IMG/VR virus record: IMGVR_UViG_3300044638_007250
Location: 1-63,212 of that record
Strand: one strand, 5' to 3'
From: a virus
DNA length: 63,212 nt
Shown here: piece after piece, positions 13,140-62,440 of the stretch
Numbering within the stretch: position 1 is the first letter of the stretch
Layout of the letters: each line of letters opens with the position of its first letter
Program-made: the position numbers and the translations under genes
Notes under the pieces: generated by a model
The model's input: only the letters and a program-made list of their open reading frames with translations
The model's database searches: none
What the model was told of the DNA's origin: nothing

Positions 13140-14978
13140 TTAAGAGAAAGTAATTGATTGGAAGTTCTTAACTGACACTCTGATGTCTTTACCAGGATAT
13201 CTGATTTGATAAACTTGTGATGGTTGTGCAAATATTGTATCATCAACAGGTGCAATCAATTTTACTTCAGGGTCGGCATACTCCATTGAAGTTTCCGCTG
13301 AAGAGTATTGTCCTCCAACTTCATTGAACACCTCTAATCCTGCAACAGTTAATACTCCGTTAGTGTTTTGAATAATACTTCTTATCTCTGACAGATATAC
13401 GTTCTGACCTAACTGTCTTGTTTGTGGGTTAAAGTATGCAGAAACTTTATCAATCACACTTGAAATAACCTGTCCTGAGTTTTGAGCCGAATCCAAAACA
13501 ATTGAAACATCAACACTCAAGTCAATAACCTCAGCACTGAATATCGATATGTAGTCATTCATCATACGATAATTTGATAGGTAGTTGGCAATATTTTGTC
13601 TCAAAGTATTTGAAACAATATTTGTTAATTTACCTGATGTATCGTATGATAAAATTTGAATTAAAATTTTGTTGTCGTTTTCTGTAATTGAAACTTTGGC
13701 AGGTGCCCCAAACTGAGCTGGCATGTTTCTAATAATTGATTCATAATCCTGTACTGTAACCGCTCTCTTTTGAGCCGCAAAGTTAAACGATACATAGTTT
13801 CTAATTTCTTCTAATGATGGTATACCCGCACCACCAACCGCTGCCGTTACGTTAACGCATCGTAATGAGTTGATTACTGCAGAGTTTGTTGTTTCAGATG
13901 GACCATTAACAAAGAATGAAACTGTACCAATTTGATTAATAACATTCGTACCTAAGTTTGTTGCTAATCCACCACCAACTCTATATTGTATAAACAAAGT
14001 AGAATTAGGTGTTAATGTAGAACCTAATGAAAAATTGTTTGAATATTTCTGCAATTCTAATGTAGTACCTAAAGTTGTGAACTGATTCAATTGGTCTTGA
14101 GCAGTATTTGTACCACCACCAAATGTCATTTTTTTAAACCCTTCAGGTGTGTATTCAGTAATAAACCTATCTTGTGTTTGAATATACCTACCTACTTTAA
14201 TACCAGGTTGGTCAGATACTTTTGTTGGGTCTTCAATAAAGACTCTATCTTCGGCTAAAGCATCTACCTCATACCACCTATTCTCAACACCTAAAAATTC
14301 TGCGGTAGTTGGTATGTTAGTATATTGAGTTCCATTCTTTAATAAAACACTTGTTATACCTAACACATTTTTTTCAGGTAAAAACAACTCAAAGAATGGT
14401 TTAACATCATTTGCTCCAATAACTCTCTTGAATACTTTTGTGATACCATTTACAACAATTTCTCTTTTTGTAATTGTGTAGTTAACCAACACGTTATTTG
14501 AATTAAAGTTTGGTATTTTAATTCTATTTGGGAAACCTTGAGCATTGTACGGTGACGCAAAATCAATGTCATAAACATTTTCAAATACAACACCAGCTCC
14601 AACAACTTGAGAACCTCTTTGTAGTGTTCCCAAATATCTTTCATCTTCTTTATCCCCAAATGCTGGAACTGTAACTGAAAAATCAACTAAAGCAACTGAA
14701 GGTCTTTGACCTGGTAATTTTAACCCGTAGGTTCTGGCAATGTTATAAATTGATGACCTTTGTTGAGCATATTGTAATACAGTCTCTTGAACACTTCTAT
14801 CAATGTTATAGTGTAAGTTATCTGCAATTGCTGCATTTAAATCAATGAAAACAGAAAATACCGAAGCGTCGTTAAAGTCTTGAATTAAATCAGGGTAATA
14901 CGTTCTAGTATAATTTAAGAGTTCAGTTCTAATTGACTGATAATCTCTTGTTGCGTACGATATTCTATTATTTGCCAT
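13140..14978 (-). CDS. 6: Baseplate wedge protein gp6-like (baseplate J family)
   Basis: 612 aa; T4 gp6 is 660 aa. The N-terminus (YATRDYQSIRTELLNYTRTY, then DLNAAIADNLHYNIDRSVQE) is characteristic of the gp6 / baseplate J family, with the conserved TYGLKLPGQRPS segment near residue 84 and a C-terminal part of the same family (YESIIRNMPAQFGAPAKVSI; DLSVDVSIVLDSA). gp6 forms the ring of baseplate wedges around the hub. It begins 5 nt after the gp25-like gene, the usual wedge pairing. ATG start. Confidence 0.9.
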   Translation of the reverse strand: MANNRISYATRDYQSIRTELLNYTRTYYPDLIQDFNDASVFSVFIDLNAAIADNLHYNIDRSVQETVLQYAQQRSSIYNIARTYGLKLPGQRPSVALVDFSVTVPAFGDKEDERYLGTLQRGSQVVGAGVVFENVYDIDFASPYNAQGFPNRIKIPNFNSNNVLVNYTITKREIVVNGITKVFKRVIGANDVKPFFELFLPEKNVLGITSVLLKNGTQYTNIPTTAEFLGVENRWYEVDALAEDRVFIEDPTKVSDQPGIKVGRYIQTQDRFITEYTPEGFKKMTFGGGTNTAQDQLNQFTTLGTTLELQKYSNNFSLGSTLTPNSTLFIQYRVGGGLATNLGTNVINQIGTVSFFVNGPSETTNSAVINSLRCVNVTAAVGGAGIPSLEEIRNYVSFNFAAQKRAVTVQDYESIIRNMPAQFGAPAKVSITENDNKILIQILSYDTSGKLTNIVSNTLRQNIANYLSNYRMMNDYISIFSAEVIDLSVDVSIVLDSAQNSGQVISSVIDKVSAYFNPQTRQLGQNVYLSEIRSIIQNTNGVLTVAGLEVFNEVGGQYSSAETSMEYADPEVKLIAPVDDTIFAQPSQVYQIRYPGKDIRVSVKNFQSITFS

Positions 14979-14983
14979 TTATA

Positions 14984-15454
14984 TTAAATATTGATAATCA
15001 CAAAATCACTCTGACCAAATGTAGAACCATTGGTCGAATAATCTAATCTTATTTTTGCGGTATATTCTGACGTACCCTTACCAGGGAATCGGTATACGGA
15101 TGATTCACTTGTACCTAAAAGATTTTGACCTGTTGCAATGTCAACTTCTTCTTGGGCGTCCGCAGGAGTAATACTTAAACTATTAACCAATAAATTTGGC
15201 ATGAATGTTTCAATAGCATCTCTTATGTCAGATTCAATGGCATTAAATGTAAGTCCGTCAAATGGTTCAAATAGAAACTCATAAAGTCTTGTTCCAAACT
15301 GAGGTAAGAAATATCGAGAACCTTTTCTTGTTAATAATAAATGTATTAAGTCGGCCTTAATCTCCTGAGATTCTAATTCAGTAAGTTCTAAGTAGTCACC
15401 TCGTCTAGAATCCCTAAAGGGAAAATTTATACCATAAGTAATTCCATCTGCCAT
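14984..15454 (-). CDS. 25: Baseplate wedge protein gp25-like
   Basis: 156 aa; T4 gp25 is 132 aa. The core LLLTRKGSRYFLPQFGTRLY followed by EFLFEPFD and IESDIRDAIETFMPNL is the GPW/gp25 family signature (R.GE....FG..L...LFEP), a wedge protein with a lysozyme-like name but a structural role joining the wedge to the hub and sheath. First gene of the wedge operon: a terminator lies upstream (15504-15528) and a late-type element ends 4 nt before the ATG, so it is probably the first cistron of a long late transcript. Confidence 0.9.
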   Translation of the reverse strand: MADGITYGINFPFRDSRRGDYLELTELESQEIKADLIHLLLTRKGSRYFLPQFGTRLYEFLFEPFDGLTFNAIESDIRDAIETFMPNLLVNSLSITPADAQEEVDIATGQNLLGTSESSVYRFPGKGTSEYTAKIRLDYSTNGSTFGQSDFVIINI

Positions 15455-15532: not shown

Positions 15533-17959
15533 TTAGGAACTACATCCAAAACATTCAAAAGGACTATCTTCAGGTTTTTGAGTTAGTTCGTATATCTCAA
15601 CTTTTGGTTGTACAATTTTGGTTTTAGGTTGTTGTATTTTTGATACATCAACCGCTAAGTGTTTAGCCCCTGTTGAAATTGCTTTAGTTCTAACATAATA
15701 ACATAATGTCTTTAAACCTTTTTCCCATGAATGGAAGTGTGATGAGGTAATCTTAGACAATGTTGGGTTAGCCATATAGATATTCATTGATTGTGATTGG
15801 TCGATAAATGGTGCTCTGTCCGCCGCCATGTTAATCAATTCTCTTTGTGAAATCTCCCAAATTGTTTTGTATTTACTAATCAAGTGTTCAATACGTTTAA
15901 CTTTCTTTGTATAGTTTTTATCCTCAGTATCAAGGTGATTATTAAAATTAATGTTTTGAACTGAACCTTCATTTAAAATGATTTCATTTTTCAAATCCTC
16001 ACTCCAAATACCAATCTTTTCAAAGTCATTAATCAAATACTTGTTCACAATCATAATTTCACCACCAACAACTCGTCTGTTAAATAACGCTGAGTGAGCT
16101 GGTTCTGTCATTTCAAATGAACCTGTAATCTTAGCTGAAGATGCCACAGGCATCTGAGCCGTGAATAATGAGTTACAAACACCGTAAGTTTTAACTTCTT
16201 CTTTTAAAGAATCCCAATTCCAAAGACCACTTAATCCTTCATAATCTAACCCCCACATATCAAATTGGAATACCCCTTTTGACATTGGTGAACCTTTAAA
16301 GTGAGCGTATGGTTTGTGTATCATTGTTTTACATAATTCCATACTTTCAGTGATTGCTGCAAAGTAGATAGTTTCAAAAATGTTTTTATTCAATTTCTTA
16401 GCATCTTCAGATGTAAAGATGTAATCCATCAAATAGAATACGTCCGCTAAACCTTGAGTACCAATCGCAATTGCTCTTTGGTCCAATCCACCCTTTCTAC
16501 CTTTTTCAGTTGAGTAACTGTTTATGTCGATAACTTTGTTAAGAGCTCTAACAACTTTTCTCACTTCACTATAAAGTAAGTTATAGTTAAACTCACCTTT
16601 CTCAATAAAGTTTTTCAATACCATCGAAGATAGTGTACAGATTGCCGTAGTTTCTTCATCGGTGTATTGGTAAATCTCATTACAAAGATTTGATTGTTTA
16701 ATCACCCCAATGTTTTGGTGGTTTGTTTTCTTGTTAGCATTATCTTTAGAACATAAGTAAGGAACACCAGTTTCAACTTGTGATTCGATAATCTTAGTCC
16801 AAACATCTTGAGCCTTAACTTTTTTACCAAGACCTAACTCAACCGCTTGGTTGTAGTTTGCTTCGTATTCGTCACCATAACATTCTTGAAGTGGTTTTAT
16901 ACCCGCCTTAATAATGTCGTTAGGACAAAACAAATACCAATCAGAACTTTCCTTTACCGCTCTCATGAAGTTGTCAGGAATCCAAAGAGCTGTGAATAAA
17001 TCTCTTGCTCTTAATTCTTCCGCACCTGTGTTCTTTTTAATATCTAACAAGTCCATAACATCTTTGTGCCATGGTTCGATGTAGATAGCAGCACTACCAG
17101 GTCGTCTTCCTTGTTGGTTAAAGAATCTTAACGACTCGTTAACTATTTTCAAATACTTCAACAATCCACCCGCAAATCCACCTGATGAATTGATACGACT
17201 TTCTTTACTTCTGATGTTAGACATTGATAAACCAATACCTGCAGCGTCTGAAGAATAAGTTGAAATATCATTCAGTGTTTGTAATAAACCATTACGTGAA
17301 TCTGAGTTATTATAATGTAAAACACAAGACGCTAATTGAGGGACTTTGGTTCCTGAATTAATAATTATTGGTGTCGCTGGTGAAATAAGTTGATTTGATA
17401 ATGAATGGTAATATTCAACCGCTTCTTCAAATGAGTTTGTTACCCATAGAGCAACTCTCATGTACATGTGTTGTGGTCTTTCTATTACTTTACCTTGTGG
17501 TGTTTTTAGTAAATACATTTCTTGTAATGAACGCCAAGCAAAGTAATCAAAGTTATAATCATTCTCATGATTAATAACCTCATCAATTTTGTCATGACCA
17601 TAAGAGTCCATGATTTCAATTAACTTGTCATTGATTACACCAGTTGAATGTAACTCCATAATAGTCTCACAAAAACTATCATTAGTTTCTTTGTGGTACG
17701 CAGAAATTGCAACTGACGATGCTAATCTTGAATAGTCGTGGTGACTACCAGTATAAGCCGCAGCAATTTCGTAAACTAACTTATCCAACTCTTTGGTTGT
17801 GATAAGTCCTTCAGTTGGGACTGATGTAATGACTTTGATGAAGATTTCATCAGAGTTTACGTTCAATCCTTTTGCCGCACGTTTAACTCGATTATAGATT
17901 TTTTGAGGATTAAATGATACGTCCTCACCGTTTCTTTTTTTAATTTTTAATGACATCAT
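15533..17959 (-). CDS. nrdA: Ribonucleoside-diphosphate reductase, class Ia alpha subunit
   Basis: 808 aa. Reduces ribonucleotides to deoxyribonucleotides with NrdB for phage DNA synthesis. Residues about 1-90 form an ATP-cone (KKRNGEDVSFNPQKIYNRVK). Catalytic residues in order: C212 (ASCVLHY) and C441 (AICTLSS), the redox pair; C426 (NLCNEI), the radical cysteine, with E428; the MPVASSAKITGSFEMTEP block; the YY pair of the radical path (LKTLCYYVRT, near 767-776); and a C-terminal shuttle pair C803/C806 (CFGC). The C-terminal CxxC spacing is like eukaryotic R1 rather than the E. coli CX4C. It starts with ATGATG 12 nt after nrdB and ends at a terminator. No intein or intron is seen. Confidence 0.95.
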   Translation of the reverse strand: MMSLKIKKRNGEDVSFNPQKIYNRVKRAAKGLNVNSDEIFIKVITSVPTEGLITTKELDKLVYEIAAAYTGSHHDYSRLASSVAISAYHKETNDSFCETIMELHSTGVINDKLIEIMDSYGHDKIDEVINHENDYNFDYFAWRSLQEMYLLKTPQGKVIERPQHMYMRVALWVTNSFEEAVEYYHSLSNQLISPATPIIINSGTKVPQLASCVLHYNNSDSRNGLLQTLNDISTYSSDAAGIGLSMSNIRSKESRINSSGGFAGGLLKYLKIVNESLRFFNQQGRRPGSAAIYIEPWHKDVMDLLDIKKNTGAEELRARDLFTALWIPDNFMRAVKESSDWYLFCPNDIIKAGIKPLQECYGDEYEANYNQAVELGLGKKVKAQDVWTKIIESQVETGVPYLCSKDNANKKTNHQNIGVIKQSNLCNEIYQYTDEETTAICTLSSMVLKNFIEKGEFNYNLLYSEVRKVVRALNKVIDINSYSTEKGRKGGLDQRAIAIGTQGLADVFYLMDYIFTSEDAKKLNKNIFETIYFAAITESMELCKTMIHKPYAHFKGSPMSKGVFQFDMWGLDYEGLSGLWNWDSLKEEVKTYGVCNSLFTAQMPVASSAKITGSFEMTEPAHSALFNRRVVGGEIMIVNKYLINDFEKIGIWSEDLKNEIILNEGSVQNINFNNHLDTEDKNYTKKVKRIEHLISKYKTIWEISQRELINMAADRAPFIDQSQSMNIYMANPTLSKITSSHFHSWEKGLKTLCYYVRTKAISTGAKHLAVDVSKIQQPKTKIVQPKVEIYELTQKPEDSPFECFGCSS

Positions 17960-17971
17960 ATTGTTTTAATG

Positions 17972-18919
17972 TTAGAAATCTTCCTCAAAGGAGATTGTTT
18001 CATTTAATTTTGCTTTTTGATATTCAACCGTTCTTGACTCAAAGAAATTTCCTTTTGTCTCAACAGCAATTTGTTCCATAAATTTAAATGGTTGTTCAAC
18101 ATTGAATTCTTTTTTACAACCCAACTTAACTAACAAACCATCAACAACGAACTCAAGATATTGTTTCATTAAGTTTGAGTTCATACCAATTAAAGATACT
18201 GGTAATGATTCAGTGATAAATTCTTTTTCAATTTCTAATGCCGATAATAAAATTTCTCTAATTCTTTTTTCACTTGGTCTGTTTTCAACGTGGTTGTTTA
18301 ACAAGTGGATTGCAAAATCACAATGTAAGTTTTCATCTTTAAAGATTAAAGAATTGGCATTACACAAACCTTGCATGATACCTCTTGATTTCAACCAAAA
18401 GATTGAACAGAATGAACCTGAGAAGAAGATACCTTCAACCGCCGCAAACGCAACCAATCTTTCTTGGAACGATGCTTTCTCAATCCAATCCAAAGCCCAT
18501 TTAGCTTTCTTTTGAACTGCTGGTAGATTGTCCAATGCGGTGAAACATAAATTCTTTTCTTCCTCATTTGAGATATAAGTGTCAATAAGAAGTGAATACA
18601 TCAAGCTATGGATGTTCTCCATCATAAGCTGGAACCCGTAGAAAAATTTTGCTTCAGGGTATTGTACCTCACGATAAAAGTTTTCAGCCAAGTTTTCATT
18701 AACGATACCATCAGAAGCCGCGAAGAACGATAAAATGTTTTTAACAAAATATTGTTCGTTCTCAGATAGATTATTCCAATCTCTGATGTCATTAGTTAAA
18801 TCTACTTCTTCAGCCGTCCACAATGCCGCTTGGTGCATTTTGTAGTATTCCCAAATATCATTGTGCTGGATTGGGAAGATAACAAACCTATTAGGGTTCT
18901 CTATTAATATTTTTTCCAT
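17972..18919 (-). CDS. nrdB: Ribonucleoside-diphosphate reductase, class Ia beta subunit
   Basis: 315 aa, typical R2 length. Holds the di-iron centre and tyrosyl radical that activates NrdA. Diiron ligands are readable: D40 (EEVDL), E101 and H104 (ENIHSLMY), E162 (VEGIFF), E196 and H199 (DENLHC). The radical tyrosine is Y108, at the H+4 position as in E. coli Y122, so it is the classical tyrosyl type. The acidic/aromatic tail FEEDF matches the C-terminal peptide that docks R2 onto R1. ATG start; just downstream of the helicase gene and upstream of nrdA. Confidence 0.95.
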
Positions 18920-47663: not shown

Positions 47664-49418
47664 ATGAGCGATGTTAGTTTAGAGTCAAAAGCGATGACGA
47701 TTCTTGAGTCCTATGAGGGCGGCAATAACTATATCTTGGAATTAAAACGCAAATCACAAGTTAATAAAAAGTTTTATCCAACAAGAAGCCAATCAGAATA
47801 TATTATCAATTTCCACGATAAACAACCAAAGGTTGCTAAAAAGTGGGTAATCCTTGATGCATACTTTGCACAGAAATTGGCTGACGATAAATTATATACC
47901 GAAATACCACAAAAGGTATGGGTTGAGAAGTTATTGGCAGATAAAGAGAAAGCTTACCACATTTGGGGTAAAGTTTTAGATAAAGAAGAATTTCACGATT
48001 TTTGGTTACCAAAAGCGGCAATCATTAAAGACAATTCAGTTAAAGATGTTGTGATTGATTATTCAAAATATTCTCACCGACCTCCACTTGAACATCAAAA
48101 AGAAGCCGTTCAAAAATTGGTGGAGAATAAAAAGTTTATTCTTGCTGATGACATGGGTCTTGGTAAAACCACATCTACAATCATCGCAGCTTTAGAATCG
48201 GGTTCTAAGAAGGTATTAATCATTTGCCCCGCAACATTAAAAATTAACTGGAAACGTGAGATTGAAAATTATTCTGACAAATCAATCTACATCGCAGAAA
48301 GTAAAAATTTCAGCACAGAAGCTGATTTTGTTATTATAAACTATGACATAATAAAAAATTTCCATGACCCTAAAAAGAAAGATGACTCTCAAGTTCTTGC
48401 TGCCAATTTTGATTTGGTTATTGTCGATGAAGCGCACTATATCAAAAATGCTACAGCGCAAAGGACGAAACTAATTAACGACATCGTTAAAAAAACTGAA
48501 CGACTTTGGTTGTTGACGGGAACACCAATGACATCACGACCAATCGACTACTTTAACTTATTAAGTTTAATTGACTCACCCGTTGCAAAAAATTGGATGG
48601 CTTATGCTATCCGTTATTGTTCAGGATACCAATTTAATGTTGGTGGAAGAAAAGTTTGGAACGTAACAGGAGCATCCAACCTTGAAGAATTAAGAGACCG
48701 AACTGTTGGTTTAACATTACGACGATTAAAAGAAAACGTTCTTGATTTACCTGACAAGATTATTACTCCCGTATATTTAAGATTAAAATCAAAGTCATAT
48801 GAAAATGTAATGGGTGAATACTACGATTGGTACGATAAAAACCCTGAAGAGTCCAAATCACTCACCGTACAGTTTTCAAAATTAACAAAAGTTAGACAAA
48901 TCATCGCAGATGAAAAAATTGCACAAACTATTGAACTCGCTGAAAACATTCTTGAACAAGACAAGAAAGTTATTATTTTCTGTAATTTCACTGATTCCTT
49001 AAATAAAATTACAGAACATTTTGGTAAATCCGCAGTTAAACTTGACGGGTCAATGTCAAAACCTGAACGTCAAAACTCTGTTGACCAATTTCAAGATAAC
49101 CCAAAAGTTAAAGTATTTGTGGGTAATATTAAAGCTGCAGGTGTCGGTATTACATTAACCGCAGCTGAAGCGGTAATCATGAATGACTTATCATTCTTAC
49201 CTTCAGACCACGCTCAAGCTGAAGACCGAGCATATCGTTACGGTCAAAAAAATAATGTTTTGGTTTATTATCCAATATTCGAAAACACAATTGAAGGTAT
49301 CATTTACGATATCTTAAACAACAAAAAACAAGTCATCGCCACCGTTATGGGAGACAACCAACACCCCGCCGATGCCGCAGAAGAAATACTACAAAGAATT
49401 AACGAATTGCGATATTAA
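47664..49418 (+). CDS. SNF2-family DNA helicase/translocase
   Basis: 584 aa. The ATPase core follows an N-terminal region of 135 residues: PLEHQKEAV (Q-type motif), motif I DDMGLGKTTS at 162-171, LIICPATLKINW (motif Ia), DEAH at 255-258 (VDEAHYIKN), motif III LLTGTPMTSRP, then the second RecA lobe with KVIIFCNFTD, LDGSMSKPERQ, AGVGITLTAAE and motif VI AQAEDRAYRYGQ. This is the SMARCAL1/HARP-like branch of SNF2 rather than T4 UvsW. Such enzymes remodel forks and anneal DNA, so it may take the UvsW role in recombination-dependent replication. Sigma70-like promoter upstream; no late element, unlike the next gene. Confidence 0.9.
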   Translation: MSDVSLESKAMTILESYEGGNNYILELKRKSQVNKKFYPTRSQSEYIINFHDKQPKVAKKWVILDAYFAQKLADDKLYTEIPQKVWVEKLLADKEKAYHIWGKVLDKEEFHDFWLPKAAIIKDNSVKDVVIDYSKYSHRPPLEHQKEAVQKLVENKKFILADDMGLGKTTSTIIAALESGSKKVLIICPATLKINWKREIENYSDKSIYIAESKNFSTEADFVIINYDIIKNFHDPKKKDDSQVLAANFDLVIVDEAHYIKNATAQRTKLINDIVKKTERLWLLTGTPMTSRPIDYFNLLSLIDSPVAKNWMAYAIRYCSGYQFNVGGRKVWNVTGASNLEELRDRTVGLTLRRLKENVLDLPDKIITPVYLRLKSKSYENVMGEYYDWYDKNPEESKSLTVQFSKLTKVRQIIADEKIAQTIELAENILEQDKKVIIFCNFTDSLNKITEHFGKSAVKLDGSMSKPERQNSVDQFQDNPKVKVFVGNIKAAGVGITLTAAEAVIMNDLSFLPSDHAQAEDRAYRYGQKNNVLVYYPIFENTIEGIIYDILNNKKQVIATVMGDNQHPADAAEEILQRINELRY

Positions 49419-49459: not shown

Positions 49460-50989
49460 ATGAAAAAAACAAAAGAGAAAATCCAACAACTAGAGTTACA
49501 GATACTTGAAAATCACGTAACAAAAGAAAAAGAGTTGTTGATTACAGAAATGAAGAAAATCGGAATAGAGAAACTACCTTATTCCTACTCAGCCCTCAAA
49601 CAATTTATTGACCCCGAAACCATGAGTTTCCATTACAATAAACACTACAAAGGGTATGTGGATAAATTAAACGACGCACTTTCAAAAAAGAAATACGGAG
49701 ATTTAGATTTAGAAAAAATTATTAAAACAATTAGTCGTTTTGATAAAACAATTCGAAACAACGCAGGTGGAGCGTTTAACCACGCATTGTTTTGGAATAT
49801 GTTAACTCCCGAACCAAAGAAACTTACAGGTGAACTTTACAAAAAGATTACTAAACAGTGGGGTACATTTACAAACTTCAAAAAAGAATTTGAAAAAATT
49901 GCCAAAGAAAGATTTGGTTCAGGTTGGGTATGGTTAGTTTTAACAACTAAAAACACATTGAAGATTATGTCGACCCCAAACCAAGATAATCCATTGATGA
50001 ATGTAATTGAAGGTGGGGGATTTCCATTGTTGGGATTAGATTTGTGGGAACACGCATATTATTTGAAGTACAGAAACAAAAGAGACGAATATATTGTAAA
50101 CTTTTGGAAAGTTGTGAATTGGGATTTTGTAACTAAAATGTACGAAATGAAAATTGAAACCAAGTTATTAGAATCAACAAAAATGAAACAGGTTTTAAGT
50201 GAGGGTAAATCTGAAATGTGTTCCAAATCAGAAAACGAATTTTATAGAATGTTATTCAATGTAAACCAAGAAATTAAATGGACATACATGAATGGTATTA
50301 ATAAAATTCTTAGAGAAGTTTTTAGTGAAAACTTTATTGAAAAACCTGAGAACAACCAATTGTCGGGGGTTTATGACCTTGAGGGACCTGGTAGGTCTGT
50401 AATTAATAAGTTGAATACTAACTACACGGCATTTTGTATTTTATTAAAAGATATTAATCAAGTTATTGCGACCATACCAAATAAAAATCCTATTGTTTTT
50501 ATTGACAAAACTCCCGCAGAACAAAAGAAAGAGGTTGAAAGGCTTGTTGGGGCTTTAAACCATTTCAAATATAGAATTTTTGATAAAGAAAGTTCAACAC
50601 TACATAATTTATTAAGAACGTTAACCGAAAAAGATAAAGCGGGTAGTAAGAGAGAGGAAATCACTGCAGCAATACTTAAAAGATTTTTTGGTAAATCGGC
50701 GAAAGTTGAATTAGTTGGTGAATTAGGTAACAAAAAAGATGCAATTCAAGGTGTTGATTTAGAGATTACAAAGGACGGCCAATTACATACCGCACAAGTA
50801 AAACCATATAGAGAAATGAAAATCGGTGAAGATGGAATTACTTTAGAAGGTACCGCAAGTGTTAAATTATATAAGACAGATTGGATGGTTTTTCAAAAAG
50901 GTAAGAATGTTTTAGTCTTTAATCAAAAACCAAAAATTGTTGGTGGTAATTTTGTTTTCCCATCCGAGTCACTTTTATATAACATATAA
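49460..50989 (+). CDS. Manganese-type superoxide dismutase fused to nuclease-like C-terminal region
   Basis: 509 aa. Residues about 38-230 are a complete Fe/Mn superoxide dismutase: FHYNKHYKGYV (H58 ligand, H62, Y66), NNAGGAFNHALFW (H108 ligand), FGSGWVWLV, NQDNPLM (Q175), and LDLWEHAYYLKYRN (D194 and H198 ligands), then VVNWDFV. All four metal ligands are present. NNAGG and Q175 fit the Mn rather than the Fe type. The C-terminal 280 residues are not SOD; about 398-450 have E400, D433 (GVDLEI) and Q446-V-K448, an E..D..QxK arrangement as in PD-(D/E)XK nucleases, though no match was verified. An N-terminal charged helix (1-37) precedes the SOD. It has a late-type upstream element and lies before the neck gene gp13, so it may be packaged in the virion. 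Confidence 0.85.
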   Translation: MKKTKEKIQQLELQILENHVTKEKELLITEMKKIGIEKLPYSYSALKQFIDPETMSFHYNKHYKGYVDKLNDALSKKKYGDLDLEKIIKTISRFDKTIRNNAGGAFNHALFWNMLTPEPKKLTGELYKKITKQWGTFTNFKKEFEKIAKERFGSGWVWLVLTTKNTLKIMSTPNQDNPLMNVIEGGGFPLLGLDLWEHAYYLKYRNKRDEYIVNFWKVVNWDFVTKMYEMKIETKLLESTKMKQVLSEGKSEMCSKSENEFYRMLFNVNQEIKWTYMNGINKILREVFSENFIEKPENNQLSGVYDLEGPGRSVINKLNTNYTAFCILLKDINQVIATIPNKNPIVFIDKTPAEQKKEVERLVGALNHFKYRIFDKESSTLHNLLRTLTEKDKAGSKREEITAAILKRFFGKSAKVELVGELGNKKDAIQGVDLEITKDGQLHTAQVKPYREMKIGEDGITLEGTASVKLYKTDWMVFQKGKNVLVFNQKPKIVGGNFVFPSESLLYNI

Positions 50990-51000
50990 TAAACTAAAAG

Positions 51001-51008
51001 ATATTTAT
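51001..51008 (+). promoter_or_regulatory. Late-type element ATATTTAT upstream of gp13
   Basis: Plus-strand ATATTTATTAGT ends exactly 4 nt before the ATG at 51013, the same spacing as before gp25, the 125-aa gene and the 519-aa gene. Confidence 0.55.
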
Positions 51009-51012
51009 TAGT

Positions 51013-52134
51013 ATGTCAGTTATACCAGAACCAGAAAGGTCAAAAATTTATACAAGAATTAAACACCTATTAGGTGCACCATTACGTAGTGTTGAAGTCA
51101 CTGACGAAATGATGGATTCTTTAATGGAATTATCTATTCAAGATTACGAACAGTACATTTTGAATTGGTTGATTGATAGTCAGTGGGTTAACTTAGTTAA
51201 TCTTAACATGACAGAAAAATCTGTTGCAAAAGCGTTGATTACAAGAACTATGGATTTTGAACAACAGTTTTCATACTCGTATTCTAAAATTGTTGGTCTA
51301 CAAGCACAAGGTCCTTGGGTTTTAAAGAAAGACTATATTGTTCTTGAACGTGATAAACAAAACTATGAAATTCCTGCTGGTCGTGAAATTAATGAAGTTT
51401 TATGGTTTAGTAATCAACCATGGACCGCATTTGGTATGGGTGGTATTGGTGGATTTGGTGGTGTTGGTTTAGGAGCCAATGAGGCAGGTTTTGCTCAAAT
51501 GGGTTATCAAGGTTCTTATTTTATGATGTCAGGTTTTGACTACTTGATAAGAATGCAAGAAGCAAACATCTTAAACAGAATTCTTGGTGGTTCTTTAACT
51601 TATAGAATTACTGCATTACCTGATGGTAAAAAAGATTTACAACTTTACAACGCACCTGGTAATAACTTTAACTGGAGTCAATATAGTAATTATGTTGGTA
51701 AAGCCGTATGGTATTGGTATTACGATGTAACACCTGATAGTAGAGCAGATTGTTTAAAAAACAATCCCGATGTAATTAAAATGCCTAATGATGTTCCATT
51801 AGAAGAACTTACTTGGTCAGATTTAAATGTACCTGCACAACAGTGGGTGAGAAGATGGTTCACGGCTTATGTTAAAGAAACATTAGGTCGAGTTAGAGGG
51901 AAATATAGTGGAAACTTAAAAACTCCTGACTCAGAATTACAAATGGATTACACAAGTCTATTAACTGAGGGTAAAGACGAAAAAACAAAATTAATAGAAG
52001 AACTTACAGGTGCTGAAGGTTGGTTAACCAGATTGAGACCTGAAAAAGTAATGGAAAAAGAAGCGTTAATTGCAGAAAACTTAAATAAACAAATGAAGTT
52101 TAGAGCAATGCCTCGTCAAATATATGTAATTTAA
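51013..52134 (+). CDS. 13: Neck protein gp13-like
   Basis: 373 aa; T4 gp13 is 309 aa. The signature is the segment AQQWVRRWFTAYVKETLGRV followed by RGKYSGNLKTPDSELQMDY and LLTEGKDEKTKLIEELTGAE, matching gp13 proteins of T4-like phages (VRRW..AL.K..LG..RGK...). An internal Gly/Phe/Met-rich loop (GMGGIGGFGGVGLGANEAGF, about 145-164) is an insertion. gp13 joins the head vertex to the tail. It follows the SOD-fusion gene by 23 bp and precedes the 111-aa gene by 3 bp. Confidence 0.8.
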   Translation: MSVIPEPERSKIYTRIKHLLGAPLRSVEVTDEMMDSLMELSIQDYEQYILNWLIDSQWVNLVNLNMTEKSVAKALITRTMDFEQQFSYSYSKIVGLQAQGPWVLKKDYIVLERDKQNYEIPAGREINEVLWFSNQPWTAFGMGGIGGFGGVGLGANEAGFAQMGYQGSYFMMSGFDYLIRMQEANILNRILGGSLTYRITALPDGKKDLQLYNAPGNNFNWSQYSNYVGKAVWYWYYDVTPDSRADCLKNNPDVIKMPNDVPLEELTWSDLNVPAQQWVRRWFTAYVKETLGRVRGKYSGNLKTPDSELQMDYTSLLTEGKDEKTKLIEELTGAEGWLTRLRPEKVMEKEALIAENLNKQMKFRAMPRQIYVI

Positions 52135-55645: not shown

Positions 55646-55666
55646 AACAATAAATATATTGTTATG
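55643..55666 (-). promoter_or_regulatory. Palindrome with late-type element and start codon of the 125-aa gene
   Basis: CATAACAAT (55643-55651) and ATTGTTATG (55658-55666) form a 9-bp perfect inverted repeat around AAATAT. The sense late-type element ATATTTAT (55657-55650) ends 4 nt before the ATG (55645-55643), and the far arm covers the stop of the 558-aa gene. It could act as a promoter with a start-masking hairpin. Confidence 0.5.
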
Positions 55667-57338
55667 ACTCTTTTCTTAAACTTCTTTCATAATGTTCAAA
55701 ACGGTCGTGTTCTGTTGGTGTCATTAATAATAAACCAGGATATAATTCACCTTTCTTAACTAATTGATACATGTGACTCATCCATGTTTGTTCGAATGGG
55801 TGTCCCCATGTTGTATCCAAAAACATTTTTTGATTTCCTGTTCTTGTTACGATTTGAGGCCAATTACAATAATATACTTCACCTGTTACGTATGGAATAC
55901 CTTGAAACGAATTAATCGAATCATATGATGCTCTTGGCGCATTTGGGTCTAAACCAATATTAGGTAACCTGTTTTTACCTGGCCAATATTTTTCTCTAAC
56001 ATCTTGAGGTACATTATACCAAGACCACTGAGTACCATTATCCCCAAAGAACTCACTATAGTTAAGTTTTAGGAAATCAAAGTTTTCTTTTTTAACAATT
56101 TGTAATGTCTTAGAATAAAGATTTGGTACGTATCGATTAAATCCATTTCTACAAACTTCTCCTTCATGAGGATAAAAGAACATATCATCTTCAAAGAATA
56201 AATAAAAATCTAAATCTGTTTCATTTTGGAAATGTTCCGCAATCCATTGACGACCACCACAAATACCTAAATTGTCTTTCTTAATGTGTTCAAAACCATT
56301 TTCCTCACATAATTTTGCGTAATCCTCAAATGTTGATTCATCACTTGAGTTATCCAATAAAAACTTTTTAGTCTTTAATAAATAATCTTTATCGTAAGCA
56401 TTCATCGATTCAATCAAAGTTGAGAATTGTTTTGGACTATTAAATGTAATCACATATAAACCAACTTTATTAATGTCTAAAGAATTTGTAATACCCCTTG
56501 GACTTTCAGATTTAGGAACCAATTCATTGTTCTTTAGTTCTTCAAAAAATTTACCGACCAACCCATTAGATTCAATTTCAAAATAATTAATTAAATCAGA
56601 ATGTTTATAACACATAACACTAAAGATGGATTCTTCTGTACCCATGTATCCTTCATCTAATGTTGTCTTTAATAAATTATAATAAATCCCATTAATATCT
56701 GCAATAGAATGTTTTGGTCCTCCAAAGAAACCACCACGAGCCACTTTGTTAACTTTAGCACCAGCGAGTGAGTTTAGTTTTTCATATTCAAAACCATGAA
56801 TTTCTCTTTCTGCATCATAAGGAAAACAAATGAATGAAAACTTTGAAATATATTTTGATAAATTATTGAATACTTTGTCATGGGTAAAGTAACCTTGGTG
56901 TACTGTATTTGTTAGTCCTCCGTCAATCCAAAACATATATTCAGAATCAAACCTATCCATAATTTTCGCGTCATGTAATAAGAATACTTTTGACATAACT
57001 AATGGATTATAGATTTCTAATCTACCTTGTGTAGATTCTTTTAACCATCCTGCCAAATTTTGCCAGTTCTCGTTAGTTCTAATCTTTTGGATTTTATCAA
57101 AAAACTCAGATTCAGTAAACCAAGATAATGGTCTCATAATAAATTGTGTATTATCAGGACTACGTCTTTCAAATACAAATTTTTGGAGTTCTTCATCACC
57201 AAAAATAATCATGTTCTCCTCACACTTTAAAAGTTGTTCAAACTTATCTAAATAATGTTGAAATGGTCGTGACCATCCTTCTGATAACTCACCTCTACCA
57301 ATATCCCAAATACCTGTTACTAATGTTATATTACTCAT
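55662..57338 (-). CDS. Two-domain glycosyltransferase (HtrL/YibB-like plus GT-A)
   Basis: 558 aa. N-terminal 1-290: TLVTGIWDIGRGELSEGWSR and YMFWIDGGLTNTVHQGYF (about 133-150) fit the HtrL/YibB family. C-terminal 290-558: GLYVITFNSPKQFSTLIES opens a GT-A fold as in family 2 glycosyltransferases, with a conserved EDDMFF near 382 as the DxD-like site and NLGICGGRQWIAEHF before it. It is probably a glycosyltransferase that modifies a phage or host polymer; donor and acceptor are unknown. Start overlaps the previous gene by 8 nt; last of the glycosyltransferase block. Confidence 0.75.
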   Translation of the reverse strand: MSNITLVTGIWDIGRGELSEGWSRPFQHYLDKFEQLLKCEENMIIFGDEELQKFVFERRSPDNTQFIMRPLSWFTESEFFDKIQKIRTNENWQNLAGWLKESTQGRLEIYNPLVMSKVFLLHDAKIMDRFDSEYMFWIDGGLTNTVHQGYFTHDKVFNNLSKYISKFSFICFPYDAEREIHGFEYEKLNSLAGAKVNKVARGGFFGGPKHSIADINGIYYNLLKTTLDEGYMGTEESIFSVMCYKHSDLINYFEIESNGLVGKFFEELKNNELVPKSESPRGITNSLDINKVGLYVITFNSPKQFSTLIESMNAYDKDYLLKTKKFLLDNSSDESTFEDYAKLCEENGFEHIKKDNLGICGGRQWIAEHFQNETDLDFYLFFEDDMFFYPHEGEVCRNGFNRYVPNLYSKTLQIVKKENFDFLKLNYSEFFGDNGTQWSWYNVPQDVREKYWPGKNRLPNIGLDPNAPRASYDSINSFQGIPYVTGEVYYCNWPQIVTRTGNQKMFLDTTWGHPFEQTWMSHMYQLVKKGELYPGLLLMTPTEHDRFEHYERSLRKES

Positions 57339-58212
57339 AAATTCTATTAAATTCTTCTAATATTCTATAAAAACTTTTATTTTGTTGGAACATCTCTTCA
57401 GATACTCCTTGTGGGGCATTGTCTCTACACCACCATATATCGAAATGTTTACGTTCAAATAGTTCACGATGATTTACATACATAAGACTCATAACTTGTT
57501 CTTCATGTGGAAGACCTTCATCTTCAGTAAGAATATCACTTACGTATTTCTCGAATAAATTTACAACTTCATCCCACTTGTCTTTATGACCACCAAACAT
57601 ACCACCAATGATGTGAATACTTCTATCGTATTCTTCATACCATTTAGGGTTTACAGTACCTGACCAATAATTTCTATCATTCTCTTTACCAAGAAGTAAG
57701 AACTTATCATTAGTATCAACAATTAAATTTTTAAGAAAATCATTATTGAATAACGTACTTTCATAGTATCTACCTTGAGGGTGAGTATCTGGTAGATATT
57801 TGTTTGGTATTAAACCACAATGTGATAAACCAGCATCAATCCAATAGTAGTAATCGTAGGATTTATCCTCATTCCACCACCAATGGAATTTAGAGTATTG
57901 AATTTCAATACATCTATCCCCTTGTTTAATTTGGTCAATATTCTTTCTAGTGTTAATTAATTCTCTGAATTTAGTTTCAGAAATATCGAATATTTTAAAT
58001 TGTAATTTTTCGGGTGATATTGAGTTCTCATCATAAAAAAAAGTTTTTAATGATTCAATCTCTCGGTCTGAAGTGTAACATAGGAAATCAGCATCGGTCA
58101 TCTTTAATAATGAAAGAAGGCTATAACGATAATGTCCACTTCTACCTACTCTACCACCGAATTCAGTTCCGTGTAAGTCACTGTATATTGATGTAATAAA
58201 TTTAACTGACAT
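57331..58212 (-). CDS. HtrL/YibB-like protein
   Basis: 293 aa. The same domain type as the N-terminal half of the next gene: FITSIYSDLHGTEFGGRVGR at the start and YYYWIDAGLSHCGLIPNKYL in the middle (about 120-140), then GGMFGGHKDKWDEVV. The YWIDAGLS and FWIDGGL phrases in the two proteins match well, so they share ancestry. Function of the family is not settled, but it is found in polysaccharide-synthesis loci and is thought to be a glycosyltransferase. Overlaps its neighbours by 11 and 8 nt. Confidence 0.7.
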   Translation of the reverse strand: MSVKFITSIYSDLHGTEFGGRVGRSGHYRYSLLSLLKMTDADFLCYTSDREIESLKTFFYDENSISPEKLQFKIFDISETKFRELINTRKNIDQIKQGDRCIEIQYSKFHWWWNEDKSYDYYYWIDAGLSHCGLIPNKYLPDTHPQGRYYESTLFNNDFLKNLIVDTNDKFLLLGKENDRNYWSGTVNPKWYEEYDRSIHIIGGMFGGHKDKWDEVVNLFEKYVSDILTEDEGLPHEEQVMSLMYVNHRELFERKHFDIWWCRDNAPQGVSEEMFQQNKSFYRILEEFNRIYE

Positions 58213-58936
58213 ATGTAAATTCTTTGTGTTGTTTATTTCTTTTCATTTCATCGGTGAGCGGTCCATTTAAATATTCTGAAGGTATTTTACAAGGACTATA
58301 TTGATTCCAATTATATGTTTGAGTGTAAAAATTATTGTATTGTCCTTGTGACACATCTGACCAACTACTTATTTGTGGAGCAATTGGTAAAATAGGACAA
58401 TAACTTTGTTTAAGTGGTAATACAAATTGGTAGATATAATCGTCAATTGCATAAAATCTTAAATTTTCAGGGATTTCCATTTTAAGTACCTCATCATATA
58501 TCGACTCATGATATAATATCATATTGGTTGCAAATATACCTCTTTCATGTTCTTTCTTTGGGGGTAAGTTTGTTATGTCCAAAAATAATGGTTGTTCCTC
58601 ACTACGATTAACATTTCTGTTTAGTGTTGGTGCAAAATTGATAACACCAAATTCAAACTCATCTGTTTCGGTTTCAATCTTATTAATTAAATCTTTGGAG
58701 TATGGTAAAAAAGTACAGTCGTCCTCAATAACTAAAACGGATTTATAACCACGTTCCTTTGCAATTTTAATTATTTCTACATGAGATAAAGTACAACCAC
58801 CATGATGGTTCAAATCAACCGCTTTAAATAATTCGTAATCCCAACCAATATAATCCATTTCTTTTTGGATATGTTCTAATCGGTCAGGTCGTCTTTCTAA
58901 ATTAACGACAAACTTAGGGATACTACAAATATTCAT
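58202..58936 (-). CDS. Glycosyltransferase family 25-like protein
   Basis: 244 aa. FVVNLERRPDRLEHI (residues 9-23), GCTLSHVEIIKIAKERGY (47-64) and LVIEDDCTF (68-76) are the GT25 signature of LPS sugar transferases and procollagen galactosyltransferases, with EDD as the metal-binding motif. The start shares one base with the upstream stop (TAATG), and the gene overlaps the next by 11 nt. A galactosyltransferase is the usual activity in this family; substrate here unknown. Since GT25 enzymes of viruses can glycosylate collagen-like proteins, the collagen-like fibre at 62449-63212 is a plausible acceptor. Confidence 0.85.
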   Translation of the reverse strand: MNICSIPKFVVNLERRPDRLEHIQKEMDYIGWDYELFKAVDLNHHGGCTLSHVEIIKIAKERGYKSVLVIEDDCTFLPYSKDLINKIETETDEFEFGVINFAPTLNRNVNRSEEQPLFLDITNLPPKKEHERGIFATNMILYHESIYDEVLKMEIPENLRFYAIDDYIYQFVLPLKQSYCPILPIAPQISSWSDVSQGQYNNFYTQTYNWNQYSPCKIPSEYLNGPLTDEMKRNKQHKEFTYVS

Positions 58937-60201
58937 TAACTAACGTGATTGTGGGTTAATCTACCTGTGATTCTATCACACCATCCTTTTGATTCTGAGT
59001 GAGGCCATACAACCCAATAAGATGGCATCTCATCAGTTTGGAACTCTCTCCACACTTTACAGTATTTGTCAGGGTCTCTCATGAAACCAGCAATTTCATT
59101 CTTGTCAGCATCTTTTCTAAATAAAGTCTCATCTTTATCGTTGTGGAATGCAACAACCCAAAAATCATAATCAGTTTCAGGAACTTGAGAATATCCAATA
59201 TCAATACAGTGTTTGAACATCATACAGAAACTATCTTTCCATTCTTGTTCTGTTTCAAAATTGTATGGGTTTGGTGGGTAATTTTTATCTAATGTATGTT
59301 TGTCAATTGCTCGTTTTGAAAAAAGAATACCCGCATATTTTTCATAATCTGTTAACGTTCTAACTTGACCAAATCCATAAGGACCATCATGACCTTCTTG
59401 AGTTTCTCCATCCATACCAAATAGTTTTCTATTTGTTAAGTGTGAGTGAGTATTTCGTTGACCCCAAGTCTTGTCATCATCCCACTGTTTTGTTCTACCT
59501 TTACGAGTGTACTCATGGTAAACAACAGGAATGTGTGGGTGGAATAAATCGTAACCCCAAGTGTAAGCTCTTGCAGCAATCGAAATCTCTTCACCGTGGA
59601 AATAATATTCAGGGTTGTGTTGAACTTCAGTTGAGAATTGTCCTAATGTAAAACAGAAGTGAGCCGAGTAAAATCTTGCAGTTACAGGTTTTGTCATTTC
59701 CCTCCAACCTGGAATTGTTTCAGGTAAGAAGAAAACCGCACCTTCAGGAATAAAACGGTCAAACACCATTCTCCAAGCATCTTGAGCTCGTCCTGCAGGG
59801 TCATTGTCGGGGTCAAAAGAAGGAACGTAGCCCGTAAGTAGAGGCTTCTTATACCCGTCCTTCTGTAACCCCTTTATCATTTTGATAAGGATATCATCCC
59901 AATCCTTAACAAATCTCATGTGAGAATCAATTTGTAATGTGTATGTTTCACCTTTGTAAAGTTGTTGTACTTGGTGTCTTGCCCAACACACACCTTTAGC
60001 ATCTTGATAAGGAATATCTAAGATTCTAAATCTTTTGTCTTTTCTATACTCATCTAAGTTATCAAACCCATCTTCATCACTATATTGTCTTGCAATACCG
60101 ATAACAAGGTTATTTGGTTTCTTGGCATTGGCCAACATGTCTTTAATTGTTGGGACCAACTGAGGGTCTCTGTACGATGCAATCTGAACGAATATTTTCA
60201 T
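58936..60201 (-). CDS. GlcNAc-transferase-like glycosyltransferase
   Basis: 421 aa. IFVQIASYRDPQLVPTIKDM at the N-terminus, GIARQY, and YTLQIDSHMRFVKDWD (residues 87-102, DSH as the metal site) match the GlcNAc family (related to the Skp1 hydroxyproline GlcNAc-transferase of Dictyostelium). A later HGEEISIAARAYTWGYDLF with HPHIPVVYHEY completes the GT-A fold. That family adds GlcNAc to hydroxyl groups of protein. First gene of the glycosyltransferase block, after a terminator at 60228-60257. Confidence 0.85.
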   Translation of the reverse strand: MKIFVQIASYRDPQLVPTIKDMLANAKKPNNLVIGIARQYSDEDGFDNLDEYRKDKRFRILDIPYQDAKGVCWARHQVQQLYKGETYTLQIDSHMRFVKDWDDILIKMIKGLQKDGYKKPLLTGYVPSFDPDNDPAGRAQDAWRMVFDRFIPEGAVFFLPETIPGWREMTKPVTARFYSAHFCFTLGQFSTEVQHNPEYYFHGEEISIAARAYTWGYDLFHPHIPVVYHEYTRKGRTKQWDDDKTWGQRNTHSHLTNRKLFGMDGETQEGHDGPYGFGQVRTLTDYEKYAGILFSKRAIDKHTLDKNYPPNPYNFETEQEWKDSFCMMFKHCIDIGYSQVPETDYDFWVVAFHNDKDETLFRKDADKNEIAGFMRDPDKYCKVWREFQTDEMPSYWVVWPHSESKGWCDRITGRLTHNHVS

Positions 60202-60278: not shown

Positions 60279-61838
60279 TTAACATCCGTTAGGGTCACCA
60301 CTTGTGATTAAACCTGAACCACCAGTTACTAAGTACCAACCTGTATTGTCAGAATAATATCCATCAGACGCTGGTGTTGTTAATGAGGTGTCTGTATAGA
60401 TAGTATCACCAACGTTTAGAGGGTTAAGAGATGGTGATAAGTAATAGTCGATTGGTGATGGGTCAGAACAAGCATTTGCTGAAGACGACAAATCATAACC
60501 TAAATTATAAGTATAATAACCAATTGTAGGTGTTGGTGATGGAGTATTTGTCGTTGTAGGTGTAGGAGTTTCAGAACTTGTCGGTGTTGGGGTTAACGTT
60601 GGTAGTCCCGAACAAAGTGAAACAATTCCCGTAGTACCCGTAGAATCAACCTCAATAACCAATCCTCCATTAGCATAATACCCTGTCATATCAATGGTTA
60701 CAGGTCCTGTTGGATTATTAAAGAATTGAGCGTTATTGTCAAACACTGGGTCTTCACCATAAATTTCACCAAAGTCACCAAAGTCACATGCGATGTTTGC
60801 TGTATTACCTGATGTTATCATGAATGAATTTCTATTTTGTGTTGGGGTTACAGTAGGTGTTGGGGTATTAGTTGGTGTTTCAGTATTTGTTGGAGTGTTT
60901 GTAGGTGTTTCACTTGGCGTATTAGTTGGTGTTTCAGTATTAGTTGGTGTTGGTGTTTCAGTGTTAGTTGGTGTAACTGATGCGGTGTTTGTTGGAGTTG
61001 ATGTATTAGTTGGTGTAACTGATGCGGTGTTTGTTGGAGTTAAAGTATTTGTCGGAGTTGCAGTTGGTGTAGGTAAAGGACATCCACCTAAAAATGTTAC
61101 ACTACCGTCTCCGTCCGCGACTATTATGTTTCTACCACATAACATTAAAGTGTCGAACACGTCTAAGAAAAAGTCAATTGGGAACCCATTACAATCAGTA
61201 CCAACAAAAGAGGTTTGATTAATAGTACCACCAAACAATAAGTAAGTCTTACAAAGTGAATTACTTGGTGTAATTGTTTGAGTTGGTGTTACGGTTGGTG
61301 TTGTGGTTGATGTTGTCGTAACAGAAGGCGTAACACTTGGAGTTGAAGTAACCGATGGAGTTACCGTTGGTGTTTCAGTTTGTGAAGGACTAATACTTGG
61401 TGTAACTGTGTTAGTTGGTGTAATACTTGGAGTAACCGATGGAGTTGGTGTATTACTTGCAGTGGCTGTTGGAGTTAGCCCGATTGTAACCGATGGAGTT
61501 GGTGTAGAAGTGTTTGTTGGTGTAACTGTTGGTGTTTCAGTCGTTGTTGGAGTTGGTGTTTCAGTTGATGTTGGTGATGGACTTAACCCTGGCGTATTTG
61601 TCGGGGTTGAAGTCATTGTAGGTGTCGGACTTGGTGTCGGACCTGGTACATTTAATGAATATGTATATCCATAAAGTGGCACATAACAATTGTAGGTACC
61701 ATAATAGTAGTCAGAAATATAATTAAATGGGAATATTTGAGAGCCTAAGTCAATCGTACCTCCCGTGTCAGGTAAATACGTGACATTTGCGGTTTGACCA
61801 CTTAAATCATCACTTAAAATTCTTACTCCTATTGCCAT
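60279..61838 (-). CDS. Thr/Pro-rich mucin-like virion protein (519 aa)
   Basis: 519 aa. The first 66 residues (GQTANVTYLPDTGGTIDLGS; SDYYYGTYNCYVPLYGYTYS) look like a virion-attachment module. Then three Thr/Pro/Ser-rich tracts, about 66-193, 254-334 and 413-439, of repeating TPTPT, TPTNT and TPSVT units, resemble mucin domains and are the sort of sequence that carries O-glycans. They separate compact Cys-containing domains, the last (about 440-519, YYTYNLGYDLSSSANACSDP, then GDTIYTDTSLTTPASDGYYS) shared with the next gene. No signal peptide. ATG start, with a late-type element 4 nt upstream. Likely a fibre or whisker glycosylated by the adjacent glycosyltransferases. Confidence 0.75.
   Translation of the reverse strand: MAIGVRILSDDLSGQTANVTYLPDTGGTIDLGSQIFPFNYISDYYYGTYNCYVPLYGYTYSLNVPGPTPSPTPTMTSTPTNTPGLSPSPTSTETPTPTTTETPTVTPTNTSTPTPSVTIGLTPTATASNTPTPSVTPSITPTNTVTPSISPSQTETPTVTPSVTSTPSVTPSVTTTSTTTPTVTPTQTITPSNSLCKTYLLFGGTINQTSFVGTDCNGFPIDFFLDVFDTLMLCGRNIIVADGDGSVTFLGGCPLPTPTATPTNTLTPTNTASVTPTNTSTPTNTASVTPTNTETPTPTNTETPTNTPSETPTNTPTNTETPTNTPTPTVTPTQNRNSFMITSGNTANIACDFGDFGEIYGEDPVFDNNAQFFNNPTGPVTIDMTGYYANGGLVIEVDSTGTTGIVSLCSGLPTLTPTPTSSETPTPTTTNTPSPTPTIGYYTYNLGYDLSSSANACSDPSPIDYYLSPSLNPLNVGDTIYTDTSLTTPASDGYYSDNTGWYLVTGGSGLITSGDPNGC
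60520..61640 (-). repeat. Thr/Pro-coding low-complexity repeats
   Basis: Imperfect 6-24-bp repeats (GGTGT[TA]/ACACC-type on the plus strand) in three tracts of the 519-aa gene, with irregular unit lengths and many synonymous changes. They encode the mucin-like tracts; the antisense strand reads as Val/Gly-rich open frames that are not genes. Confidence 0.9.
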
Positions 61839-61842
61839 GTCT

Positions 61843-61850
61843 ATAAATAC
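61843..61850 (-). promoter_or_regulatory. Late-type element GTATTTAT upstream of the 519-aa gene
   Basis: Sense GTATTTATAG ends exactly 4 nt before the ATG at 61838. Confidence 0.55.
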
Positions 61851-61885
61851 TTATTTTTTTCTATTTTAAACAAATAAAATTATTT

Positions 61886-62440
61886 TTAACCACATATACC
61901 TTTGTTTAATATCAAGGTACCTGACATTTGTATAAATGTTGCACCATCTGAAATTGTCCCAATATTCCCTTGAGGGGGAATTGTTAATGATATATTACCA
62001 TAAACATTGTCTCCAGATTCTAATTCGCTAAATGGTATTAAAGTATAAATTGTTATATTTGCGGGGTCTCCAAAATTGATAGACTCACACACATCTTCAT
62101 AGAATCCGCCACTCCACAAATTATATGTGTAAATAATTACAGGAGTTCTTGTTGGTGTTGGTGTAAATGATGGTGTTGGAGTTACAGTTGGAGTTACCGA
62201 TGTTTGAGTTGGTGTTGGTGTGAATGATGGTGTTGGAGTTATTGATGGACATAAACCTATCACTACAACGTCTAATGGTGCGGCATAATCCTCAACATAT
62301 AAATCTTTAGCACATACGTAACTTGTTTGTAGGGGTTCAACAGGGGTGACACTAATAATGTCGGTACACCCTGTCCATCTATAATATCCTGTTTGAACAT
62401 TATTATAGTTGGTTACCCTAAAATAATTACAATTTGACAT
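61886..62440 (-). CDS. Small Thr/Pro-rich mucin-like virion protein (184 aa)
   Basis: 184 aa, a smaller version of the 519-aa protein: an N-terminal Cys-containing module (1-62, MSNCNYFRVTNYNNVQTGYY), a Thr/Pro-rich tract (65-103, TPTPSFTPTPTQ), and a C-terminal module beginning YTYNLWSGGFYEDVCES that matches the layout of the last domain of the 519-aa protein (YTYNL...C...GD..Y...SLT.P......DG...). Follows the collagen-like gene by 8 bp. A virion glycoprotein core is inferred. Confidence 0.7.
   Translation of the reverse strand: MSNCNYFRVTNYNNVQTGYYRWTGCTDIISVTPVEPLQTSYVCAKDLYVEDYAAPLDVVVIGLCPSITPTPSFTPTPTQTSVTPTVTPTPSFTPTPTRTPVIIYTYNLWSGGFYEDVCESINFGDPANITIYTLIPFSELESGDNVYGNISLTIPPQGNIGTISDGATFIQMSGTLILNKGICG

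Follow-up and report, generated by a model that had tools for sequence, protein, structure and literature searches.

Polymorphic, or modular, toxins pair a constant carrier with an exchangeable nuclease tip. Among nucleases of the PD-(D/E)XK type, the homing endonuclease I-Ssp6803I, the Holliday-junction resolvase Hjc and the SPARDA nuclease DREN have in common a helix that bears a glutamate, a strand that bears an aspartate and a strand with a QxK motif, and in DREN the residues D41, Q60 and K62 do the chemistry, so that D..QxK represents a proven catalytic set (PMC12205087). Bacteriophage T4, in turn, can package and deliver foreign nucleases by means of short head-targeting peptides (PMC9026906). 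The gene analyzed here lies in a window of 63,212 nucleotides, the whole stretch of viral DNA under study (IMG/VR record IMGVR_UViG_3300044638_007250), and joins in one reading frame a superoxide dismutase (SOD) to a second half that resembles nucleases of this type (Table 1).

The preliminary description of this locus had proposed a full Mn-type Fe/Mn SOD followed by about 280 extra residues, and both parts of the claim are borne out. Residues 36-226 match the two Pfam domains of the family (Sod_Fe_N, 1.4e-22, 80.4 bits with a cut-off of 27; Sod_Fe_C, 1.4e-39, 134.7 bits with a cut-off of 20.9), bacterial MnSODs are the closest solved structures (E-values down to 9e-57 against PDB sequences), and the extra residues follow in the same frame in every relative. 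The residues named at the outset (H58, H108, D194, H198, Q175 and NNAGG) are all in place; the four ligands and Q175 are kept in all of the 106 distinct full proteins on which our counts of residue conservation are based, and the second-sphere tyrosine Y66 is as invariant as the ligands. Compared with the SodA/SodB family (PF00081 and PF02777), with which it shares both domains, the four metal ligands, Y66 and the Mn-type signature (NNAGG and Q175), the fusion is longer by 35 residues at the N-terminus and by a nuclease-like half of 280 residues at the C-terminus. The dN/dS ratio of the SOD half ranges from 0 to 0.06 in 11 pairs (one SOD value being saturated), and this half appears to be a working Mn-type dismutase under purifying selection. 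Conservation of the dimer-interface residues E197/H198/Y201 and H62 further suggests that it dimerizes, so that C-terminal halves would be paired. The placement of the gene in a neck module, on the other hand, is only half right: a gp13-like neck gene comes next downstream, but the upstream neighbor codes for an SNF2-type helicase and is no neck gene. An internal start at M242, which would yield a free nuclease, was considered and rejected because many relatives have I, L or F in place of this methionine.

Table 1. Features of the SOD-nuclease locus (positions in the window; residues are those of the fusion protein).
Feature	Position	Strand	Support
SOD-nuclease fusion gene, 509 aa, ATG to TAA	49460..50989	+	intact in all complete relatives
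N-terminal extension, residues 1-35, predicted helix, low confidence (pLDDT about 57)	49460..49564	+	
Mn-type Fe/Mn superoxide dismutase domain, residues 36-230, constant half	49565..50149	+	
Linker, residues 231-255, last SOD helix prolonged plus loop, low model confidence	50150..50224	+	
LLE|S, residues 236-239, candidate gp21-type prohead-protease site, edge of constant half	50165..50176	+	
LSE|G, residues 246-249, second candidate protease site	50195..50206	+	
Nuclease half, residues 256-509, variable exchanged cassette	50225..50986	+	AlphaFold model, Foldseek, cassette swap
E399, catalytic-glutamate candidate, long helix	50654..50656	+	106/106; also kept in free-standing homologs
D433, metal-ligand candidate	50756..50758	+	106/106
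Q446-V-K448, QxK motif on next strand	50795..50803	+	Q446 and K448 in 106/106
Late-type promoter element TATTTATA, 29 nt before fusion start codon	49431..49438	+	104/106 relatives
Late element of gp13, TATTTATT, just past right edge of cassette	51002..51009	+	TATTTAT before gp13 in 106/106
gp13-like neck / head-tail adaptor gene	51013..52134	+	phrog_211, E 2e-10
SNF2-family helicase, without late element of its own	47664..49418	+	PF00176 5e-29; phrog_62

The residues that follow the SOD match nothing above cut-off in Pfam, PHROGs, NCBIfam, PADLOC or PDB sequences. The best profile match below the cut-off was DUF6602 (0.0016), and membership in a known defence or anti-defence family was rejected, all matches being sub-threshold; a cellular origin was likewise rejected, as a pattern search of 84,980 species genomes returned no relative. 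An AlphaFold2 model of the nuclease half (m290f0c4f6d84), built with 38 relatives, reached a pLDDT of 89.8 and a pTM of 0.83, and lays out a helical region, a long helix (379-413) with E399 and then strands, D433 being placed at strand 434-438 and Q446 and K448 in strand 441-449. In a Foldseek search of the PDB the first match to this model was I-Ssp6803I (2ost, probability 1.00, E 8.6e-3, TM to the target 0.4-0.5) and the next was Hjc, with E-values that are modest throughout (9e-3 to 1). The likeness to PD-(D/E)XK nucleases that had been suspected is therefore upheld by the agreement of model, Foldseek and invariant residues, and its E..D..QxK pattern needs a single correction, since D433, Q446 and K448 had been identified properly but the glutamate is E399 and not E400. 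All four residues are invariant in 106 of 106 proteins although the nuclease halves diverge to 30% identity, and the dN/dS ratio of this half lies between 0.07 and 0.31 in 11 pairs. Taken together, the invariant active sites and the low dN/dS values suggest that both halves are kept working, the SOD frozen and the nuclease changing. We conclude from sequence and model that the second half is probably a metal-dependent nuclease of the PD-(D/E)XK type, even though it departs from these enzymes in the absence of the canonical second helix from the model, in an extra helical N-terminal region of about 120 residues, in the lack of detectable sequence similarity to the named families and in its fusion to a SOD.

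Free-standing homologs of the C-terminal half are encoded by two huge phages, LR756501 (735 kb) and LR745206 (634 kb; E-values 2e-17 and 6e-9, respectively). Both keep E, D and QxK as in the fusion, and neither genome encodes a SOD; the LR745206 protein begins with MKKFTEYIKESS, reminiscent of a head-targeting peptide. No free-standing relatives of these huge-phage proteins were found in IMG/VR, and the BFVD collection contains an uncharacterised marine phage protein of 1113 residues with the same C-terminal fold. SET-domain proteins were seen both two genes upstream of the fusion in one relative (L168:5121-5513) and, by eye, directly beside the free-standing homolog of LR756501 (L273:3317-3754), an association that may be due to chance.

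The late-type element reported upstream of the gene proved to be real and lies on the coding strand. Read on that strand, TATTTATW precedes, at a distance of at most 60 nt, 10 genes of the window (0.4 expected) and 40 genes of the 182-kb relative G001 (2.1 expected), and the genes so marked include portal (identified by profile), scaffold, tail tube, baseplate and neck genes. In the window they start at 4453, 13047, 15454, 37774, 39657, 41145, 49460, 51013, 55645 and 61838. TATTTATW on the coding strand corresponds to the T4 late box TATAAATA in reverse complement; the box itself was rejected as the late element, for it is not enriched (10 against 9.5 expected). TATTTATW marks late/structural genes in this phage group and offers a simple late-gene marker for it, uncultured as it is; the conserved element indicates that the fusion gene is probably expressed late. 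Elsewhere in the window, a run of four proteins that by eye resemble glycosyltransferases or sugar-modifying enzymes (55662-60201, minus strand) adjoins long Thr/Pro-rich repeat proteins (60279-62440), and the two are perhaps involved in surface decoration.

Phage SODs of this family had been thought rare, which is wrong for the lineage in question: when the whole protein was used to scan IMG/VR, at least 370 candidate stretches were found to encode it, and the best 80 of the 370 all have SOD and nuclease in frame. In order not to select loci for the fusion, we also anchored them on gp13. This approach located 80 loci in IMG/VR, and in 78 of 78 newly fetched ones SOD and nuclease share one frame, none of the 78 being without the fusion. 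The fusion is hence present in other phage genomes, as far as IMG/VR relatives are concerned, and is fixed in its lineage; none was found in annotated phage records, and the isolates immuto and Mel-JY01, which were checked for gp13, are devoid of both halves. The supposition that no such fusion was known agrees with the literature searched, in which none was found described, yet the fusion is present in databases, as illustrated by a 501-aa relative in BFVD (A0A6J5L953) that was deposited as a plain 'superoxide dismutase'. A fusion that is fixed in a common phage lineage is, in other words, filed under the name of one of its halves. The SODs of phages PA5oct and 2.275.O (a Vibrio phage) and of MW462191 are, unlike the fusion, free-standing. 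Several unannotated 'phage' records (H1-H9, among them OR845917, OR851122, OR846594 and OR844989) carry SODs that are 44-49% identical; these look like bacterial DNA filed as phage and were left out of the analysis, and counts of phage SODs need care given that such DNA sits in phage-labelled records. The same SOD/nuclease-gp13 module also occurs on two IMG/VR contigs of jumbo size (L333 and L330, of 321 and 317 kb), which implies that genome size varies widely within the lineage. Bacteroidota SODs are the nearest relatives of the SOD half (45-56%), and, judged by gp13 and DNA polymerase, the most closely related isolates are phages of Flavobacterium, Microcystis and Salinibacter; these relationships point to a probable Bacteroidota host.

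Comparison of the relatives reveals that the two halves have had different histories. The nuclease halves form five classes below 55% identity, and pairs exist in which SOD halves are 96-98% identical and flanks about 90% identical while the nucleases are only 34-36% identical. In the pair L057/L303, SOD residues 1-235 are 98.3% identical and the nucleases 34.8%; L284/L300 and L166/L285 are further instances. The DNA sequences are about 90% identical over the SOD half, and over the helicase too in four of five pairs; from roughly nt 705-735 of the gene onward they are about 50% identical, and at gp13 the value is again about 90%. SOD halves are as similar between nuclease classes as within them, and a tree built from SOD DNA requires no fewer than 12 changes of class. 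The gp13 gene downstream is conserved across cassette classes, being 82-89% identical among the divergent relatives aligned, the nuclease halves of which go down to 30%. The contrast in identity and the SOD tree together indicate that exchange of the nuclease half has been independent of the SOD half. Its edges appear to be sharp, with the linker on the left and the stop codon on the right. Assembly chimeras are unlikely to be the source of these swaps, because the same states recur on independent contigs from different samples. When other carriers of the c2 cassette were sought, all 36 new loci turned out to be SOD fusions again. No immunity gene accompanies the cassette, and in the window gp13 starts 23 nt after the stop codon. 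In L157 (IMGVR_UViG_3300042924_007202) the region upstream of the gene bears no relation to the one that contains the helicase in L284, although SOD and gp13 are about 90% identical; this break is another exchange edge, just before the gene.

The left edge of the cassette falls close to a possible protease site. Only two matches to [LIVMF]xE[AGST] are kept in 33 of 33 close relatives, and both are located in the linker (LLE|S and LSE|G). The first retains the loose motif in 105 of 106 proteins and the strict form LxE[ST] in 102, and the second is found in 93 of 106, with losses in some members of class c2 and in the majority of c3 and c5; the motif is short, occurs at 0.3-0.4% of positions by chance and was spotted after the fact. 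The relative G001 encodes a prohead protease of the T4 gp21 family (Peptidase_S77), and its major capsid protein (gp23) has a typical FLINE|ASS site, of the same type as LLE|S. In G001 the motif also occurs within the first 30 residues of 13 of 40 late-element genes against 12 of 115 others (odds ratio 4.1, p=0.002), a modest enrichment that is not seen in G006. Residues 1-35 of the fusion contain no conserved cleavage motif of this protease type (33 close relatives, 106 proteins), including any site that would end a targeting peptide in LxE or IxE. The late element, the LxE|S/T site in the linker and the presence of Peptidase_S77 make packaging plausible and lend circumstantial support to the carriage in the virion and delivery to the cell that had been proposed at the outset; packaging, cleavage and injection taken jointly are speculative and, in our estimate, somewhat doubtful. 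The PA5oct SOD-like protein, which bears an 'ESI-MS/MS' note, is a weak proteomic precedent for a packaged SOD because metabolic enzymes in that record bear the same note.

Several other G001 genes deserve mention in this context. A polyphosphate kinase 2 gene (PPK2, 2.9e-70; L187:17933-19030, G001 177933-179030, minus strand) is preceded by a late element at -19, and its product carries LLSE / IIKEA as an N-terminal motif, on account of which it is perhaps another packaged enzyme of the lineage. Several further late-element genes have N-termini of the MK..LxE[AGS] kind (L185:9480-10244, 13936-15444 and 16863-18032; L186:8191-9357; L187:12677-13297 and 17076-17699), and their products are candidates for packaged internal head proteins.

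The reading that we favor, with a probability of about 0.45, is that of a two-part protein made late in infection, in which a constant SOD is joined to an exchangeable nuclease against non-self DNA, and which is possibly carried in the virion. The Mn-type SOD would dimerize and pair the C-terminal halves, and the nuclease would attack DNA that is not the phage's own, belonging either to the host or to a rival phage, with its specificity as the property that cassette exchange trades. The fusion might then be taken into the prohead and cleaved by the gp21-type protease at LxE|S/T, where the constant half ends. It might be injected at the next infection, in which the SOD may shield either the enzyme or the DNA that comes in, and the nuclease, once released, would act. 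At the sequence level, two domains with invariant active sites, cassette exchange, a conserved late-type element and a conserved linker motif are there to be seen, and an antagonistic role of the nuclease half seems a reasonable postulate; phage genes and domains are commonly mosaic, though, and antagonism need not follow from this. We consider unlikely the most complete version of these ideas, a virion-borne polymorphic redox-nuclease effector with the SOD as carrier, in which the nuclease would be released in the prohead, both parts would be injected, the SOD would clear reactive oxygen species and shield the incoming genome from superoxide, and the nuclease, traded as a weapon, would destroy host or rival DNA.

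Alternatively, the nuclease might process phage DNA in the infected cell, perhaps together with the SNF2 helicase, in recombination, branch resolution, packaging clean-up or recycling of host DNA, with a SOD half that guards against superoxide or merely dimerizes the nuclease and with cassettes that reflect ordinary mosaicism. Such housekeeping would suit the fold likeness to Hjc and the Holliday-junction resolvases, the helicase directly upstream in the window and in the loci inspected, the homologs that huge phages carry without SOD and the fixation of the fusion in the lineage, which is what a core gene would show. We nonetheless hold it to be rather unlikely, since the late element belongs to the fusion and not to the helicase, the upstream region differs in L157 and one would not expect a core enzyme to vary more than gp13 or the SOD half, whereas the nuclease half is by far the most variable part. 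Replacement between conserved flanks with sharp edges would also result, by itself, from allele homing or marker exclusion, in which the nuclease would cut the cassette of a co-infecting relative and repair would copy in its own allele. The replaced tract is indeed bounded by conserved SOD and gp13 sequences, the class changes repeatedly on the SOD tree and a homing endonuclease is the closest solved fold, but 78 of 78 loci are fused, with no nuclease-free allele as would be typical of homing genes, a late promoter would be poorly timed for homing and no target site was identified, all of which makes this account quite improbable. The weak Foldseek scores and the missing second helix might finally be taken to mean that only the SOD is an enzyme, a notion in keeping with the free-standing, and hence on their own useful, SODs of other phages, and that the C-terminal half is a degenerate nuclease fold that binds DNA or the capsid. 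Both free-standing homologs and 106 of 106 proteins retain E399, D433, Q446 and K448 although the remainder diverges to about 30%, which renders this very improbable.

The two-part protein with its exchangeable nuclease has the appearance of a weapon module of a hitherto undescribed kind. A frozen SOD next to a rapidly exchanged nuclease with an untouched active site bears on the question of why phages carry SOD, the late promoter and the possible protease site on whether this lineage delivers enzymes with its DNA, and cassette exchange on whether related phages fight with exchangeable nucleases. As with the internal proteins and Alt of T4, we are dealing with a late-type gene of a T4-like phage, with an LxE|S/G motif and with a gp21-family protease (in G001), but the T4 targeting peptide is N-terminal and cut by gp21, whereas the motif of the fusion is internal, between the domains. 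With the polymorphic toxins the fusion shares a constant N-terminal half, a possible cleavage site and a sharply bounded, exchangeable C-terminal nuclease; it differs from them in that no immunity gene was found, in that the carrier is a SOD instead of a secretion or head-assembly module, and in that the cassettes are homologous alleles and not unrelated folds.
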